Origin: Candidatus Kaiserbacteria bacterium
GTDB taxonomy: Bacteria > Patescibacteriota > Minisyncoccia > Phycocordibacterales > Phycocordibacteraceae
DNA: 47,172 nucleotides
Direction of reading: 5' to 3'
NCBI GenBank assembly: GCA_029288835.1
Contig: JARIGN010000028.1
Location: 1-47,172 of the forward strand
Shown: positions 15,018 to 28,193 of the stretch, piece by piece
Layout: each line of letters starts with the position of its first letter
How positions within the stretch are numbered: position 1 is the stretch's first letter
Position numbers and translations under genes: made by a program
Notes under the pieces: generated by a model
Database searches by the model: none
What the model saw: the letters and a program-made list of their open reading frames with translations, nothing else
Told to the model about the DNA's origin: nothing

Positions 15018-15088
15018 TGCGAGATCGTCTAATGGTAGGACACAACACTCTGGATGTTGTTATCTAGGTTCGAGTCCTAGTCTCGCAG
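15018..15088 (+). tRNA. tRNA-Gln (anticodon CTG)
   Basis: Acceptor TGCGAGA/TCTCGCA, anticodon stem CAACA/TGTTG with loop CTCTGGA (anticodon CTG), and T arm CTAGG/CCTAG with loop TTCGAGT. The discriminator is G at 15088; CCA is not fully encoded. It sits at the left edge of the probable mobile island. Confidence 0.93.
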
Positions 15089-15167
15089 CAGCCTAGTTTA
15101 GTATCGAAGGACCTAGAGGAGTCAGATTTGCTGCATACCTTCGAATTGTCGTATAATTCTCTTCACT

Positions 15168-16426: not shown

Positions 16427-17740
16427 AGAGATTATTTTCTGCTCTAGTTTCAGCTTACTCTTCAAACAAGTCAGCAGATCTCTCTTCTCAAATAAATTCC
16501 CATAGCTCAGAACGTGCTTCGCGTAGTTCCTTATATCTACCTCCTTTGCGATGCACTCCTCTTCCTTCAATCCCAGAATTTTGGACTGGAATGCATTGTG
16601 ACGCTCGATCTCAACTTCAAGCTTTTTCCTGAGGCCTGACTTATCGAGATCGATTTGGTCGATGATCCCGACCAGTTGGCTGATTAGTATCTTCTCCTCA
16701 ATGTATCCCTCCTTGCAGTTAATATCCCTTGAGCGTGTGCAGCCATAGTAGGTGTATTTGGCTATGGTGCCGTCTTTCAGATTCTTATACTTATCCTGGG
16801 CCGTCACTCCTGACCCACAAGCGCCACAGAAGAGGATGCGGGTGAAGGCAAATTCCTTATACTTGCCCTTAGCCCGTATCTGGAGATGGAGCTGCTTCTG
16901 GACCTCGTCATAGAGCTCTTTTGAGATGAGTGGTGCGTGCTTTCCTTGAAACCATCTACCGCTCGCTTTCGGATACTCGAAGGTTCCATGATAGAAATGG
17001 TTCGCGAGTATCACGTATATGTTGCTCAGTGTGAGTGCCTTTCCGCTTCGTGATGTAAACCCAATCTCCTTAAGCCACCGGTATAGCTTCCTCCCGCTCC
17101 ACCCCTCATATGCTACCTTCGTGAACATCTCTTTAATAACGGGTGCTCGCTCAGGATCTATAAAGACCACACCCTTCTGATCCTTATTCTTTGAGTTTAC
17201 ATATCCTGTTGGCGCGACCGATGGCCAGAGCCCCAGTTCACACTTCGTTTTAAGTCCACGCTTTACGTTTATGCTCTTATTATCGTTCTCGAGCTTCGCC
17301 TGGCTTCCAAGGATCATGAGGAGGAACTTCTCGTTTGGGTTATTCGTGAAGCGCTGGCTGTGGGTGCGTATTTCAATAAGTTTCTTCTGGTCGAGGAGGT
17401 CGACAATGGCTCCCAGGTCTCCTGCATTTCGGGAGAGGCGATCAGGGTGCCAGACGAGTATGCCGTTAAACTTTCCTGAGCGGATATCCGTGAGGAGCTG
17501 GTTAAAGACCGGGCGCTGCCCACAGTCTTTCGCGGAGTGCGATTCCCGGTATATGTCGACAATAGTGAGTCCTTCACGCTGAGCGGTCGTTAACATCTCG
17601 TTAATTTGTGAATCTACTGAGAGCGCCTGCCGCTCCTCGCTCTCGCTTGATTTTCGGGCATAGAGGCAGTATCTGAGTGGCTCTGCTGCCTGGACTGCCG
17701 CAAACCCTACCTGAGCCCCGTATTGTGCCGTTTGGTCCAT
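16388..17740 (-). CDS. Large serine recombinase
   Basis: A 450-residue site-specific recombinase. The N-terminal resolvase domain (~20-165) starts CLYARKSSESEER, where one of the paired serines is the nucleophile, and includes LVWHPDRLSRN. A recombinase domain (~190-290: GYVNSKNK...GWSGRKLYRWL) follows. A zinc ribbon (FCGACGSG near 315, then YYGCTRSRDINC) and a C-terminal coiled coil complete it. It would catalyse integration or excision between short att sites. It converges on and overlaps the Abi-like gene and diverges from the restriction operon. Att sites were not identified. Confidence 0.92.
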   Translation of the reverse strand: MDQTAQYGAQVGFAAVQAAEPLRYCLYARKSSESEERQALSVDSQINEMLTTAQREGLTIVDIYRESHSAKDCGQRPVFNQLLTDIRSGKFNGILVWHPDRLSRNAGDLGAIVDLLDQKKLIEIRTHSQRFTNNPNEKFLLMILGSQAKLENDNKSINVKRGLKTKCELGLWPSVAPTGYVNSKNKDQKGVVFIDPERAPVIKEMFTKVAYEGWSGRKLYRWLKEIGFTSRSGKALTLSNIYVILANHFYHGTFEYPKASGRWFQGKHAPLISKELYDEVQKQLHLQIRAKGKYKEFAFTRILFCGACGSGVTAQDKYKNLKDGTIAKYTYYGCTRSRDINCKEGYIEEKILISQLVGIIDQIDLDKSGLRKKLEVEIERHNAFQSKILGLKEEECIAKEVDIRNYAKHVLSYGNLFEKRDLLTCLKSKLKLEQKIISLDTSHQTEQQPS

Positions 17741-24005: not shown

Positions 24006-25553
24006 ATGAAGGCTGACCTTATCCGCTTGAGCGGCGTTCGTTGCTTTGAAGACACCGGTGAGATCCCGCTCAGCCCGAGCATGAATATATTCGTTGGACA
24101 CAATAATGCGGGGAAGTCGACAATCTTAAAGTCGCTACTGAATTTACAGGGCTTCCCATTCACCCAGCGCGACCTCCGACCAGGCTCCTCAATTTCGTAT
24201 TCGGAGGTCCAACTTTCAGGTATAGCACCGAATGCGAACGTTCGCGCTCGCCCGGACGGCGAATCAAGATTGCGTGTCGTTTATGTGTACAAAGGGAGTG
24301 TGCCAAATTCAGCTCCCACGATACACACGGTGACTTTTCAAGATCAAAATCCGACCTTTTCTCAACACCGGCCTGGTAATGTAATTGTTCCATTCATTGC
24401 CAAAAGGAAGGCGGTTGCGTTCGATCAGACCGTTAATTTAGGAATCCAGGCCGAAGTCAGCGGCACTCACAGAAACTTGGTTAGCCTTATTGATGAGGTA
24501 GCCACCGCTGGTCATCCTGATCATGAGAAATTTCTTGCCGCAATGCGAGACATCGTGGGAATAGACATAACAACAAAGGCTTCAGGTGGAGGGAAGGAAG
24601 CCGGTGCTTATCTAGGTCGGCACACGTTTATAACGTTGGAGCAAATGGGTGATGGCGTCTCCGAAATGGTCTCCCTGATCGTCGCTCTCTGTGTCGAAGA
24701 GGACAAAATTTTCGTCATCGAAGAGCCTGAGACTAACCTGCACCCAACTGGACTGAAATCGCTCCTACGTCTTATGCGGGACGCGGGCAAGACCAATCAG
24801 TTTATCGTTGCAACACACTCCAACATAGTCGTTCGAGAGCTCGCCACCGAGCCTGACGCAAAACTATTTCGTGTTTCGAGGACCGCAACAGAGCTCGCTG
24901 CACCCTCAGAGGTGAGCGAAGTGCCAGAGACGCCGCAGGCCCATGTCGCTCTACTGAGAGACTTGGGATATGAATTTGCCGACTTTGGTTTGCATGAAGC
25001 TTGGCTGTTCTTGGAGGAGTCGTCTGCAGAGCGAATAATCCGGGACATACTGATCCCACAGTTCGAGCCTTCGCTTAAGAATAAACTTAGAACCTTTTCC
25101 TGTGGCGGAGTTGGGAAGGTTTCTGCTGCGGTCGCTGACTTTCAACGGCTTGTCACGTTCATACATTTACAGCCCGTCTACAAAGAGACCCTGTGGGTTC
25201 GCACTGATGGCGACACGGTAGGCAGGGACGTTGTGGCGAAGCTGGTAGAAAAGTTCCCGTTCCTAGAGGGCGACAGGTGCGCCCCATTCTCCGAGCCCGA
25301 CTTCGAACGGTTTTATCCTGGGCACTTTCGGGATGAAGTGGATCGAGTTCTTGCGATGCCAAAAGACGATAGTCGGCGAGCGGCGAAGCTCGATTTGCTA
25401 GAGGACGTTTTGAACTGGACCAGACAGAATATGAACGAAGCGCGGGCTCAGTGGGAAGCAAGCGCAAGTGAACCGATCGGACTTTTGCGGCTGATTAATC
25501 AAAGTCTGATGGCGACACCGATGGGATCGGAGTCAGCAGACGGATCGGACTAA
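24006..25553 (+). CDS. OLD-family ATPase-Toprim nuclease
   Basis: A 515-residue ABC-type ATPase fused to a Toprim-like nuclease domain, as in the OLD (overcoming lysogenisation defect) anti-phage nucleases. Walker A is GHNNAGKS (31-38). The signature region is QMGDGVSEM (~210-220), Walker B is FVIEEPETNLHP (~236-247), and the switch His is in ATHS (~264). The Toprim part has the acidic start LFLEESSAERII (~332-343) and DGDTVGRD (~400-407). No UvrD-like helicase is adjacent, so it looks like a stand-alone class 1 OLD rather than a Gabija system. GC-rich codons suggest recent transfer. Confidence 0.85.
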   Translation: MKADLIRLSGVRCFEDTGEIPLSPSMNIFVGHNNAGKSTILKSLLNLQGFPFTQRDLRPGSSISYSEVQLSGIAPNANVRARPDGESRLRVVYVYKGSVPNSAPTIHTVTFQDQNPTFSQHRPGNVIVPFIAKRKAVAFDQTVNLGIQAEVSGTHRNLVSLIDEVATAGHPDHEKFLAAMRDIVGIDITTKASGGGKEAGAYLGRHTFITLEQMGDGVSEMVSLIVALCVEEDKIFVIEEPETNLHPTGLKSLLRLMRDAGKTNQFIVATHSNIVVRELATEPDAKLFRVSRTATELAAPSEVSEVPETPQAHVALLRDLGYEFADFGLHEAWLFLEESSAERIIRDILIPQFEPSLKNKLRTFSCGGVGKVSAAVADFQRLVTFIHLQPVYKETLWVRTDGDTVGRDVVAKLVEKFPFLEGDRCAPFSEPDFERFYPGHFRDEVDRVLAMPKDDSRRAAKLDLLEDVLNWTRQNMNEARAQWEASASEPIGLLRLINQSLMATPMGSESADGSD

Positions 25554-25865
25554 CTCGCACGTTCGGCATCTGAGGGACGTGGGAGACATTGGAGACACTA
25601 TGCGGCTAGTGGCAGCTCCAGCTGCCTGTTCTGCTGCTCAATTCTTACCCACGCCTGGAGATCCTCGATCTCATGGAGGAGGAGTGCGAACGGAGGTTCG
25701 CTGAGGAGTGTCGCGAGCTTCCGCGCTAACCTCTCCGCTCGACGGAGCGCACGTGGAGGGATCAGCGACCCATCCTTCCGACGCTTCGCACCATTCGCAC
25801 GGGACGTGTGGGTTCGAACATCGTCTAGCTGCCCCAGCTCGTTATTTTCGCGCTATACTCCTTGT
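25554..25865 (+). other. GC-rich 312-base gap with possible gene remnant
   Basis: No complete gene is present. Frame 25610-25729 is open and reads like a protein C-terminus (LEILDLMEEECERRFAEEC, then a stop), preceded by an in-frame TAG and lacking a start. It may be the tail of a decayed gene brought in with the OLD-like gene. Composition returns to the genome norm near 25800, just before the HIT gene promoter. Confidence 0.3.
25854..25859 (+). promoter_or_regulatory. -10 box deciding the HIT gene start
   Basis: TATACT lies six bases before the ATG at 25866. An in-frame start at 25806 would put the promoter inside the gene, so 25866 is preferred. Confidence 0.65.
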
Positions 25866-26297
25866 ATGAACTGCGCATTCTGCACTAATCCTGATGTTAA
25901 AAAGCGAACGATCATAGAAAATGATCTTGCTTTCGCATTCCCAACCAATACACCGATCGTACCGGGCCATATTCTTATAGTACCGAAGCGTCATATCCAA
26001 TACTACGAAGCGGCGACTCCAGAAGAGAAAGTTGCAATTGAAGAGCTACGAGAAAAGATCAAAGCCGCATCACTCAAAGCCTTCGAAGCTCAAGGATTCA
26101 ACTATGCATGGAACGAAGAGGAGATAGGAGGACAGTCTGTCCCGCATTTTCATTTGCACATTGTTCCTCGTAAAAAAGGGGATGCAGGCATATATCAATA
26201 TGAGCCGAGAGAATTTCTTTACCGTCCTGGCGCGCGTGCCGCGAGCCCTGATGAAGAGCTTTTTGGTGTTATTGAATCTATCAGAGCTGCATTATAA
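25866..26297 (+). CDS. HIT-family nucleotide-binding hydrolase
   Basis: A 143-residue histidine-triad protein. The catalytic triad HFHLH is at 94-98 (His94, His96, His98) in VPHFHLHIVPR. An N-terminal zinc-knuckle-like CAFC (3-6) opens the chain, and GHILIVPKRHI (~35-45) is the family's substrate loop. Such enzymes hydrolyse nucleoside phosphoramidates, adenylylated compounds or dinucleoside polyphosphates; the precise substrate is open. The start is set by TATACT six bases upstream. The first copy of the 26-28 kb repeat begins inside its stop codon. Confidence 0.9.
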   Translation: MNCAFCTNPDVKKRTIIENDLAFAFPTNTPIVPGHILIVPKRHIQYYEAATPEEKVAIEELREKIKAASLKAFEAQGFNYAWNEEEIGGQSVPHFHLHIVPRKKGDAGIYQYEPREFLYRPGARAASPDEELFGVIESIRAAL

Positions 26298-26326
26298 AGG
26301 TTCCAACGTCGTACCAGATTCGCAGC
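26296..26326 (+). repeat. Dispersed repeat copy 1
   Basis: A 31-base element, AAAGGTTCCAACGTCG followed by TACCAGATTCGCAGC. It begins within the HIT stop codon. It aligns with copies at 26774, 27202 and 27833, all in the same orientation. Confidence 0.65.
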
Positions 26327-26344
26327 AACAAATAAAATGAAAAG

Positions 26345-26373
26345 CCCTGCAGGAGGCAAGGCTTCCTGCAGGG
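26345..26373. terminator. Bidirectional terminator
   Basis: CCCTGCAGGA (26345-26354) pairs with TCCTGCAGGG (26364-26373). TTTTGG follows on the plus strand and CTTTTCATTTT on the minus strand, so it can stop both the HIT transcript and the minus-strand gene at 26380. Confidence 0.85.
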
Positions 26374-26379
26374 TTTTGG

Positions 26380-26700
26380 TTATTCGGATTCATCAAACTC
26401 GCGTACGTCACTTCTAGGATCTCTCTTATGGCCGCGGTACACGCCAGTGGTAGTGTCCGCCGACGAATCCTGCAGGACCACATGTTCACGGTTGACCTGA
26501 AGCACACGCGTAGCACCTTTCTTGGAAAGAGCGATGCGCATGATCGGGGTGTCACTGGGCACCTTGGTCACGTGTCCGATGTCTCTCACCTCAATTCCCA
26601 TGCTTTTGAGCTTGGTGACAAGTTCATCGACAGGGGGTTGTGAGTGATGAGGATAGTTGAGGGCTTTCTTATAGCCCCTCCGAAAAGCCGCTAAGTCCAT
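26380..26700 (-). CDS. Cassette gene 1: small protein of unknown function
   Basis: A 106-residue basic protein of unknown family. The central part (~25-75) looks like a small alpha/beta fold: VDELVTKLKSMGIEVRDIGH, then IMRIALSKKGATRVLQV. The C-terminus is charged and probably disordered. It has a complete expression unit on the minus strand: TTGACA and TAAAAT spaced by 16 bases, GGGAG six bases before ATG, and a terminator seven bases after the stop. It is flanked by repeat copies 1 and 2, so it looks like one cassette of an array. It uses Shine-Dalgarno initiation, unlike many neighbours. Confidence 0.62.
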   Translation of the reverse strand: MDLAAFRRGYKKALNYPHHSQPPVDELVTKLKSMGIEVRDIGHVTKVPSDTPIMRIALSKKGATRVLQVNREHVVLQDSSADTTTGVYRGHKRDPRSDVREFDESE

Positions 26701-26730
26701 TCCTAACTCCCATTTTCCAAACCTAAAATG

Positions 26731-26758
26731 ATTTTATATATAGAAAATCTTTTGTCAA
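26731..26758 (-). promoter_or_regulatory. Promoter of cassette gene 1
   Basis: On the minus strand TTGACA (26758-26753) and TAAAAT (26736-26731) are separated by 16 bases. This is the best consensus -35/-10 pair in the window, and it lies just inside repeat copy 2. Confidence 0.75.
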
Positions 26759-26773
26759 GTAGCTACCTCGAAA

Positions 26774-26803
26774 AAAGTCCCCACATCGTACTAGACTCTC
26801 AGC
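26774..26803 (+). repeat. Dispersed repeat copy 2
   Basis: A 30-base element, AAAGTCCCCACATCG followed by TACTAGACTCTCAGC, with 23 of 30 positions identical to copy 3 by hand alignment. It separates cassette unit 1 from unit 2. Confidence 0.65.
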
Positions 26804-26822
26804 TCGCTAATTTCAATAACGC

Positions 26823-26845
26823 AAAGACCCCACCTTTCGATGGGG
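26823..26845 (-). terminator. Minus-strand terminator of cassette unit 2
   Basis: On the minus strand CCCCA and TGGGG enclose a short loop containing TCGAAAGG, and TCTTTGCGTT follows. It sits just inside repeat copy 2 and would end a minus-strand transcript starting near 27184. Confidence 0.6.
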
Positions 26846-27201
26846 CCTGGTGCAAGTGAGGATCTCACTCCTCTTCACCTCGGACAGCGCTTGCACGGTG
26901 TCCAACGACAATTGTCGTTCTGCTATCGAACCAGATATATTGGTGGCTTCTACCAGTACGCGGTCATCATAAGTTGGAGTGGAACCCAACTCATGGCAAC
27001 TCAGAGCGCGCACTACCGCTCACATACAGCAGTTAATGATCGTCATGAGAGGACGTGTGCGGATACGGTTGTAAACCTGTCCTGTATCTCATGAGAGGTC
27101 TCTCCGGTGGAAGGGGAGACACGGTCGCGGGACCCGCGTTTTTCACCAACGGAGCAAGGTCAGTTTCATGGAGACCTCCTTTCCGCTATGAGTGTAGCAT
27201 A
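26846..27201 (-). ncRNA. Cassette unit 2: structured transcript without a convincing protein
   Basis: The stretch has a minus-strand extended -10 (TGCTACACT, 27191-27199), a strong Shine-Dalgarno site (AGGAGG, 27175-27180) and an ATG at 27169. That frame encodes only MKLTLLRW before TGA. Stable stems follow: CGCGGG/CCCGCG (27126-27131 with 27133-27138) and an eight-pair stem (27098-27105 with 27113-27120). A minus-strand terminator ends it at 26823. It may be a regulatory RNA with a leader peptide, or a decayed cassette gene. On the plus strand the GC stem is followed by TTTTT, so a plus-strand RNA is also possible. Confidence 0.35.
27191..27199 (-). promoter_or_regulatory. Extended -10 of cassette unit 2
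   Basis: TGCTACACT on the minus strand directly abuts repeat copy 3. Transcription would start near 27184, giving a short leader that contains AGGAGG before the ATG at 27169. Confidence 0.5.
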
Positions 27202-27231
27202 AAAGTTCCAGCATCTTTCCAGACTATCAGC
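27202..27231 (+). repeat. Dispersed repeat copy 3
   Basis: A 30-base element, AAAGTTCCAGCATCT followed by TTCCAGACTATCAGC. It separates the minus-strand unit 2 from the plus-strand unit 3 and has the same orientation as the other copies. Confidence 0.65.
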
Positions 27232-27307
27232 AATTGACTTTTAGTAAAAAAAATTGCATATAGTACTGAGTATTCAACACAAAATGGCAGAATAAGGACT
27301 TTGGTAC

Positions 27308-27772
27308 ATGGAACGCAATCAAGAACAGTGCAACGGCCGCTTCTATGCCGGGGCATTCCTGCTGATGCAGCAATGGAATAACCTCCAAATAGTTCAGTTC
27401 GACAGGGTGCGAGATGCACACGGCTCCGCCACCTTCATCGGACACTACACGATGAACGGCGGCTCCTATCTGTATGTGGCCACGGCTGCGATGCCGATTG
27501 TGACCTTCGCCATCCTCGTTCTCTTCATGGCGCGGAGCTCCTTCGACAAAAAGGACCTTAGCTTTCTGGCCGTTGTGGCTGCGGCAGCGATCACCCTCTA
27601 TGCGTGGCCGCTCGTTCAGGGTTTCCCTAGTCTTTGGTGGGCCCTGTTCGTCTTAATCTTCCAGACCCTGCTAGTACCAACGGCCAGCGTCGTCTGGATT
27701 CTGCGCGAGCGTCTTGTCGTGTTCGCGCGCAAGCTACGTTTCCAGGCGCCTATCACGATGGCAACCGACTAG
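27308..27772 (+). CDS. Cassette gene 2: small membrane protein
   Basis: Up to 154 residues with three hydrophobic helices at ~58-76, ~85-103 and ~110-130 (YVATAAMPIVTFAILVLFMA; FLAVVAAAAITLYAWPL; WWALFVLIFQTLLVPTASVV). The first ~50 residues are polar and may not be translated; a start at a later Met, such as codon 20 or 49, is possible. The basic C-terminus (RERLVVFARKLRF) is probably cytoplasmic. The gene is GC-richer than its flanks. It is bounded by repeat copies 3 and 4 and ends in its own terminator. Function is unknown. Confidence 0.6.
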   Translation: MERNQEQCNGRFYAGAFLLMQQWNNLQIVQFDRVRDAHGSATFIGHYTMNGGSYLYVATAAMPIVTFAILVLFMARSSFDKKDLSFLAVVAAAAITLYAWPLVQGFPSLWWALFVLIFQTLLVPTASVVWILRERLVVFARKLRFQAPITMATD

Positions 27773-27793
27773 GCATCGGTGCCGCAAGGCATT

Positions 27794-27821
27794 GAGCCGC
27801 TTCCTTCACAGGGAGCGGCTC
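27794..27821 (+). terminator. Terminator of cassette gene 2
   Basis: GAGCCGCTTCC (27794-27804) pairs with GGGAGCGGCTC (27811-27821), with one G-T pair, over a six-base loop. TTCTACTT follows. Repeat copy 4 starts 11 bases later. Confidence 0.8.
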
Positions 27822-27832
27822 TTCTACTTAAC

Positions 27833-27863
27833 AAAGGCTCATACGTCCTATCAAACTCTTCAT
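27833..27863 (+). repeat. Dispersed repeat copy 4
   Basis: A 31-base element, AAAGGCTCATACGTCC followed by TATCAAACTCTTCAT. It is the most diverged copy, about 20 of the first 28 positions matching copy 1, and marks the right end of the array before the DUF427 gene. Confidence 0.5.
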
Positions 27864-27881
27864 TAGTAAAAAGCTATAAAA

Positions 27882-27896: not shown

Positions 27897-28193
27897 ATGA
27901 AAGCAGTCTGGAATGATACGATTATCGCCGAGAGCGACAAGACGATAGAGATTGAGGGTAATCAGTATTTTCCTCCTGACGCAGTGAAGCGAGAATATTT
28001 GGAGGATTCCGACTATACCACTACCTGTATTTGGAAAGGTCTCGCACACTACTACACCCTAGTGGTGGGAGGAGAGCGGAACGAGAATGCAGCCTGGTAT
28101 TATCCAGCTCCAAAAGAAGGCTCGATAGAGCGCGTGGGAAAAGACTTTACTAACTACATTGCCTTTTGGAACGGGGTAGTCGTAAGTGAATAA
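27897..28193 (+). CDS. DUF427 protein
   Basis: A 98-residue single-domain DUF427 protein, a small beta-rich fold of unknown biochemical role common in bacteria. The family pattern is visible: MKAVWNDTIIAESDKTIEIEG, then YFPPDAV near 25-31, then TTCIWKGLAHYYTLVV near 41-56, and AAWYYPAP near 64-71. It begins with a leaderless extended -10 promoter. The DUF347-type membrane protein starts 11 bases after its stop with its own TATAAC box. The gene borders the cassette-like array and looks like chromosomal backbone. Confidence 0.88.
   Translation: MKAVWNDTIIAESDKTIEIEGNQYFPPDAVKREYLEDSDYTTTCIWKGLAHYYTLVVGGERNENAAWYYPAPKEGSIERVGKDFTNYIAFWNGVVVSE

Follow-up and report, generated by a model that had tools for sequence, protein, structure and literature searches.

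A probable small array of an integron-like cassette-capture system at tRNA-Gln ends in a Candidatus Kaiserbacteria genome

What kind of element is formed by small units set between copies of a short degenerate repeat in a bacterial genome of 802 kb? The question is raised by a stretch of 47,172 nucleotides from a Candidatus Kaiserbacteria bacterium (assembly GCA_029288835.1, contig JARIGN010000028.1, positions 1 to 47,172, forward strand; this whole stretch is called the window), in which such repeats lie between a gene for a HIT-domain protein and a DUF427 gene. An earlier note on this DNA had proposed a cassette-capture system. We find that the repeats belong to a family of sites that recurs in related genomes, where it bounds arrays of variable, mostly single-gene units beside tRNA-Gln ends. 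The window very probably holds an array of this integron-like cassette-capture system of Patescibacteria, one that, to judge from its sequence, looks small and partly decayed.

The copies of the repeat, referred to below as the site, are the following; R1 is a sequence-only model built from the four window copies, and the family matrix rests on 100 sites, of which 96 come from other genomes.

25811..25841, + strand: probable fifth copy, degenerate, upstream of the HIT gene (E 0.09; 24 nt before the HIT start)
26296..26329, + strand: site copy 1 (R1 29 bits; family matrix 45 bits)
26773..26806, + strand: site copy 2 (R1 27 bits; family matrix 34 bits)
27201..27235, + strand: site copy 3 (R1 27.3 bits; family matrix 38 bits)
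27833..27867, + strand: site copy 4, weak, probably terminal (R1 23.4 bits; family matrix <14 bits)

The four direct repeats of the earlier note are thus present, all on the + strand and with a mean column identity of 76%; three are clear and one is weak, and the probable fifth had been missed. R1 recovers exactly the four window copies and nothing else in the 802-kb genome (E <= 10), and the window consensus, at up to three mismatches, has two matches in the genome versus none in 100 dinucleotide shuffles, scores that are partly circular because model and consensus derive from the copies themselves. Non-circular proof of the repeat comes from other genomes of the genus, in which R1 detects the family in up to 24 copies per genome, and from the family matrix, which gives copies 1 to 3 34-45 bits against a maximum of -2 on reversed sequence. 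Copy 4 looks like a worn terminal copy. The fifth copy, GGTTCGAACATCGTCTAGCTGCCCCAGCTCG, has a score that alone is marginal; it ends 24 nt ahead of the HIT start codon, a gap typical of the site family, and HIT is therefore probably a cassette gene too. A search of the home genome by pattern, model and family, which the earlier note had called for, yielded no copies beyond these five; the same search in relatives yielded many.

Of 93 genomes in the genus, 31 contain R1 matches (E <= 0.05). These matches are clustered, mostly 200-800 bp apart, and copies within one array share one orientation. An alignment of 100 members with their flanks reduces the site to one sharp block of ~36 bp, with the consensus AnAAA[GA]GTTCCAACATCGTCCCAGACTGCCAGCAAt, beyond which conservation is almost nil. 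R2, a second model built from 100 sites, was applied to the class: 12 of 286 genomes have matches, and these represent 11 genera and several families. The exact degenerate pattern was found in 66 stretches of the GTDB collection (one genome per species, 84,980 prokaryote species), whose titles name Patescibacteria, Parcubacteria, Kaiser-, Adler-, Nomura-, Berkel- and Woesebacteria and Elulimicrobium, a Patescibacteria genus; one is titled only 'uncultured bacterium' and none as another phylum. A phage origin was rejected: the exact pattern has no match in IMG/VR and the window segment has no DNA match in phage records. A known RNA family at the site was rejected as well, as only tRNAs pass the Rfam threshold in the four sources searched. 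As a separate observation, one array (L044, 3984-9558) mixes the site subtypes GTTCCCACGTCGTACCAAACCCCCAGC and GTTCGAATATCGTCCCAGACTGCCAGC, as if it had had two cassette donors.

Between the sites of relatives lie units that are unrelated to each other and mostly carry a single gene, with a median spacing of 496 bp (123 units). Many genes in the same sense as the site start 12-40 nt past it and end a few bases from the next. When the 98 unit open reading frames (ORFs) of 80 aa or longer were screened against Pfam, few matched (NUDIX 5, HAD 3, histidine phosphatase 2, methyltransferase 2, DUF218 2, and others), and no recombinase was among the 25 families displayed of the 50 matched.

Most of the fetched arrays begin beside a tRNA-Gln end. 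The pattern AGGTTCGATCCCTAGTCT[GC]CCAGC, which is the T-arm and acceptor 3' end of tRNA-Gln, lies upstream of the first unit and on the same strand in 16 of 20 fetched arrays, and a 17th (L057) is preceded by a real tRNA-Gln(CTG); since the loci were picked for having matches, a fraction such as 17/20 describes well-preserved arrays. Nearly all genomes are metagenome assemblies. On 462 kb of reversed sequence the pattern, at up to four mismatches, has no match. The anchor is a real tRNA-Gln(TTG) gene in L043, L054 and L059, an ectopic copy at a YceG/MltG stop codon (PF02618) in L042 and L061, and an ectopic copy directly after tRNA-Pro in L045 and L050. We rejected tRNAs in general as anchors: it is Gln that anchors arrays, and the tRNA-Pro merely precedes an ectopic Gln-end copy. 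Across the 93 genomes, those with more tRNA-Gln ends tend to have more sites (correlation, rho 0.53, p 6e-8), as illustrated by 11 ends and 24 sites in G063, 9 and 13 in G115 and 6 and 24 in G088; G099 has three ends and zero sites. Two tRNA-Gln 3' ends of G099 stand 83 bases apart (G099:C6:8389-8495). The xer genes of G092 (L167, 3294, - strand) and G090 (L163, 3476, + strand) each have an ectopic tRNA-Gln end at their 3' end.

The association extends to other genera, where tRNA-Gln is again found near sites in L112, L108, L123, L221 and L226, and where the sites of G230, G347, G209, G304 and G339 lie downstream of tRNA-Gln on the same strand. There the two halves of the site behave differently. 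The left half (GGTTCCAACATCGTCCCA) is nearly constant across families, and the right half, in a comparison of few families made without a formal test, tracks the 3' end of the tRNA-Gln that the respective host carries. Family f71 keeps the left half, but its right half is not CTGCCAGC. The tRNA-Gln end is CCCGAACAA and the site end CCCGAACAAA in G209 and G304, and G347 is alike; in G230 and G340 the tRNA-Gln ends in ..CCGAGC and the sites in ..CGAGC, the tRNA-Gln(CTG) of G230 ending CCCCAAGCTAGTCAAA and two of its sites CCAAGCTAGTCAAA. With a constant left half and a right half matching the host target, the site is therefore a chimera. The tRNA-like right half is also the reason why a protein-coding past of the repeat, which the earlier note had offered as an alternative, was rejected.

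Between the same flanking genes, the units of an array vary from species to species (L042/L061, L043/L054/L059 and L045/L050), so that the fixed unit order that would have spoken for an immobile locus is not what relatives display. Homologous units found in different contexts usually lose their similarity within the site. The clearest junction is seen between xer and an xthA-like gene (Exo_endo_phos, PF03372), in an empty/occupied pair of genomes whose Xers are 97.8% identical. The empty site in G092 is TATACCGACCAAAGCTTCGATCCCTAGTCTACCAACTATGCACGCTTGGAATGAAACTTC; in G090 two units lie between a left junction, TATACCGTTAGAGTTCGATCCCTACTCTGCCAGCTACTG, and a right junction, AAAAAGGTTCCAACATCGTCCCAGACTGCCAACTATCCTCGCTTCGAATGGAACTTC. 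At the left junction of G090 a T is kept before CTGCC, with AGC after it, and at the right junction an A precedes and AAC follows, as in the empty G092 site; these bases place the exchange within about six bases, CT[AG]CCA. L050 was considered as an empty counterpart of L045 and then rejected, since the ~60 bp that the two have in common could be a homologous unit.

Arrays also have a polarity. In 13 of 14 arrays the sites become poorer the farther they lie from the tRNA end (sign test p 0.002), as insertion at the head would predict, L046 having the opposite trend; when the last copy, possibly chimeric, is dropped, the left half alone still declines with distance (permutation p 0.005). These p-values, like that of the correlation above, are optimistic because several uncorrected tests used the same arrays and related genomes are not independent. 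The cassette mobility proposed by the earlier note thus finds support in relatives, in their arrays of unrelated units, variable content, homology ending at the repeat and the empty/occupied pair; at the window locus it was not seen directly, and mobility there is inferred from the site family.

Which enzyme could act on these sites? A single tyrosine recombinase is the rule in the genus, and in the loci read it is an Xer encoded near the S15 gene and xthA. Of six Xers tested, four clearly exceed the NCBIfam XerA cut-off and two do so by about 10-18 bits; the nearest solved relatives are XerC-like, XerA and XerD. Among 16 array genomes, tyrosine recombinases (PF00589) number one in 10, two or three in five and none in one, and in G088, G090 and G079 the Xer is the sole match to PF00589 or PF00239. 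Serine recombinases are absent from these three genomes and from G010, for which reason a serine recombinase was rejected as a required partner. The second tyrosine recombinase of G104 (L174), likewise considered, has no such site nearby. By elimination among the two families searched, Xer is the only constant candidate.

The explanation that we favour combines these observations as follows. Each cassette would consist of a short gene and one ~36-bp site, and the role of attI would fall to the T-arm and acceptor 3' end of tRNA-Gln or to an ectopic copy of it. We infer that a circular cassette recombines with this insertion site by means of a tyrosine recombinase, the crossover falling within about 6 bp, CT[AG]CCA, and that the window array has the same origin. 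New cassettes would enter beside the tRNA end, and distal sites would therefore be older. The tyrosine recombinase at work is most likely the host's single XerA-like Xer, a choice in which our confidence falls a little short of even; otherwise another element would provide the enzyme. It counts against Xer that the enzyme may be supplied in trans.

Several observations weigh against this explanation. Recombination itself was not observed, and the exact junction rests on one pair of genomes, in which the event may have been an excision instead of an insertion. The number of tyrosine recombinases differs from one in six of the 16 array genomes, canonical dif does not exceed its control count in the 93 genomes of the genus, and the site has, judged by eye, no obvious pair of Xer arms. 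L044, L053 and L058 have no insertion site in the stretch fetched, and the sites of G269 and G123 fit their own tRNA-Gln poorly. In the window the copies are worn and uneven in quality, and no tRNA-Gln end lies beside the array, the sole one found in the window being the gene at 15018-15089.

Other explanations account for part of these data. A true integron of the CALIN type (cluster of attC sites lacking integron-integrases), with attC repeats acting as folded single strands and IntI missing from the genomes, would also give a same-orientation array of short unrelated genes with an interposed repeat and a distinct head site. However, the logo of 100 sites has no GTTRRRY/RYYYAAC core pair and only 36 conserved bases; 40 sites with flanks show no excess folding on either strand (mean z about +0.3); genes abut the site, so there is no room for an attC of 57-141 bases; and the six Xers score 125-138 bits on TIGR02249, far under the integron-integrase cut-off of 265. 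Canonical attC was rejected for want of both cores and fold, and we consider a CALIN very unlikely; the doubts about a canonical integron voiced in the earlier note were right, neither IntI nor attC having been found. Hardly more credible, and if anything less so, is a regulatory element (promoter, terminator or processing site) between short genes instead of a recombination site. A -10-like hexamer does directly follow 17 of 84 sites versus 4 of 84 in a control stretch, but in the 109 units whose ORF reaches 50 aa or more the genes run both ways, 76 with the site and 33 against it, and such an element accounts neither for the match to the tRNA-Gln end nor for unit homology that ends inside the site, nor for the G092/G090 junction.

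tRNA 3' ends are classic att sites, and additive islands with repeated tRNA ends have been described (PMC10872708), so that tandem accretion of integrative elements or satellites at tRNA-Gln, their integrases since lost and the single-gene units being deletion remnants, deserves more weight. The units, however, are small and regular, with one gene each and no integrase among the Pfam families displayed; homologous single units recur across species with the same limits, and even between families the site keeps its left half. We therefore hold accretion to be improbable. Of another kind is the suggestion that the window array is an inert relic at a long-fixed locus, although the family is a cassette system. 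Its copies are degenerate and only four or five in the genome, no insertion site adjoins it and its second unit has no ORF; genomes with few copies are, on the other hand, common in the genus. We find it rather likely that the array is such a relic, which is compatible with cassette capture at tRNA-Gln ends and is no alternative to it for the family.

The units and genes of the window array are listed here.

25866..26297, + strand: HIT-domain gene, probably a cassette gene, its stop overlapping copy 1 (PF01230, E 1.4e-21)
26341..26377, no strand: inverted repeat resembling a terminator, at the 106-aa ORF's 3' end (17-nt arms, 88% complementary)
26380..26700, - strand: orphan 106-aa ORF, the gene of unit 1, with no Pfam or NCBIfam match
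26810..27198, no strand: unit 2, with no convincing ORF (ORFs only up to 66-84 aa, no match among the families tested)
27308..27772, + strand: hydrophobic 154-aa ORF, the gene of unit 3, with no Pfam or NCBIfam match
27897..28193, + strand: DUF427 gene, probable further cassette gene, starting 29 nt past copy 4 (PF04248, E 8e-27)

The earlier description holds for the unit sizes (430-630 bp), for the overlap of the HIT stop with copy 1, for the directions in which the ORFs run and for the terminator-like hairpin at 26341-26377. No homologue of the 106-aa ORF turned up in 78 further genomes of the genus, and relatives of the 154-aa ORF, sought in viral contigs, gave nothing useful. Unit 2 may be a small RNA or a decayed gene; a terminator-like sequence lies in it near 26822-26850. 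The DUF427 gene is patchy, being present in 5 of 59 genomes. Immediately upstream of the array stands a gene for a 515-aa AAA ATPase (24006-25553, + strand) with OLD/AbiEii-type matches (PF13175, PF13304); ATPases of this type are often part of defence systems. Elsewhere in the window, a serine recombinase (17237-17665, - strand; PF00239, E 1.3e-25; open frame of 479 aa) lies 2 kb downstream of the tRNA-Gln(CTG) at 15018-15089 and possibly belongs to an integrative element.

How does this system compare with known ones? As in integrons and CALINs, cassettes of one gene, mostly of unknown function, are arrayed with sites in one orientation, and as in integrons there is a distinct head insertion site at which new units would be placed. 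Unlike in integrons, the site is ~36 bp without attC cores or fold, IntI is missing, the insertion site is a tRNA-Gln end present several times per genome, and many cassettes run against the array. In composite islands of the staphylococcal cassette chromosome (SCC), att sites recur in a single orientation at the 3' end of a gene, and the component elements are kb-sized and carry serine recombinases; here the units are single genes, and serine recombinases are absent from several array-bearing genomes. The nearest described relatives are additive tRNA islands. The additive flexible genomic islands of Ca. Methylopumilus are up to 42 kb long, and what recurs in them is simply the last 20 nt of tRNA-Lys (PMC10872708). 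Recurring copies of one tRNA gene's end and variable content are common to both; here, by contrast, the units are mostly single genes and the repeat is chimeric, its right half and the head site matching tRNA-Gln and its constant left half not. Tycheposons, too, have a tRNA gene at the border and gene cargo, but they measure 4-200 kb and carry a tyrosine recombinase (PMC10872708), whereas the present cassettes are about 0.5 kb and show none among the Pfam families displayed. The nearest system that relies on a host Xer are the dif (pdif) modules of Acinetobacter plasmids, small modules that have short dif-like sites, lack an enzyme of their own, are mobilized by the host's Xer and, in published examples, are flanked by inversely oriented sites (PMC6449649). 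Small gene modules bounded by short sites are shared, with the host Xer here a candidate only; the present sites differ in having one orientation, in not looking dif-like to the eye, and in being chromosomal and tRNA-anchored. That this is a separate system restricted to Patescibacteria, with insertion at tRNA-Gln ends, a non-hairpin site of ~36 bp and a housekeeping Xer acting in trans, in effect a gene bank without a dedicated enzyme, is possible but on balance doubtful.

A description of the system was not found in the open-access literature, the scope of our search, which left out most subscription papers and all bioRxiv preprints; priority is therefore not established. To our knowledge, gene gain by bacteria with genomes under about 1 Mb is poorly known. 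If our explanation is true, these organisms would have a recognisable, searchable route of gene gain, with up to dozens of cassettes per genome, differing between sister species and mostly of unknown function, which integron finders, looking for attC folds and IntI, are expected to miss. It would also raise the testable question of whether a single Xer does more than resolve chromosome dimers.

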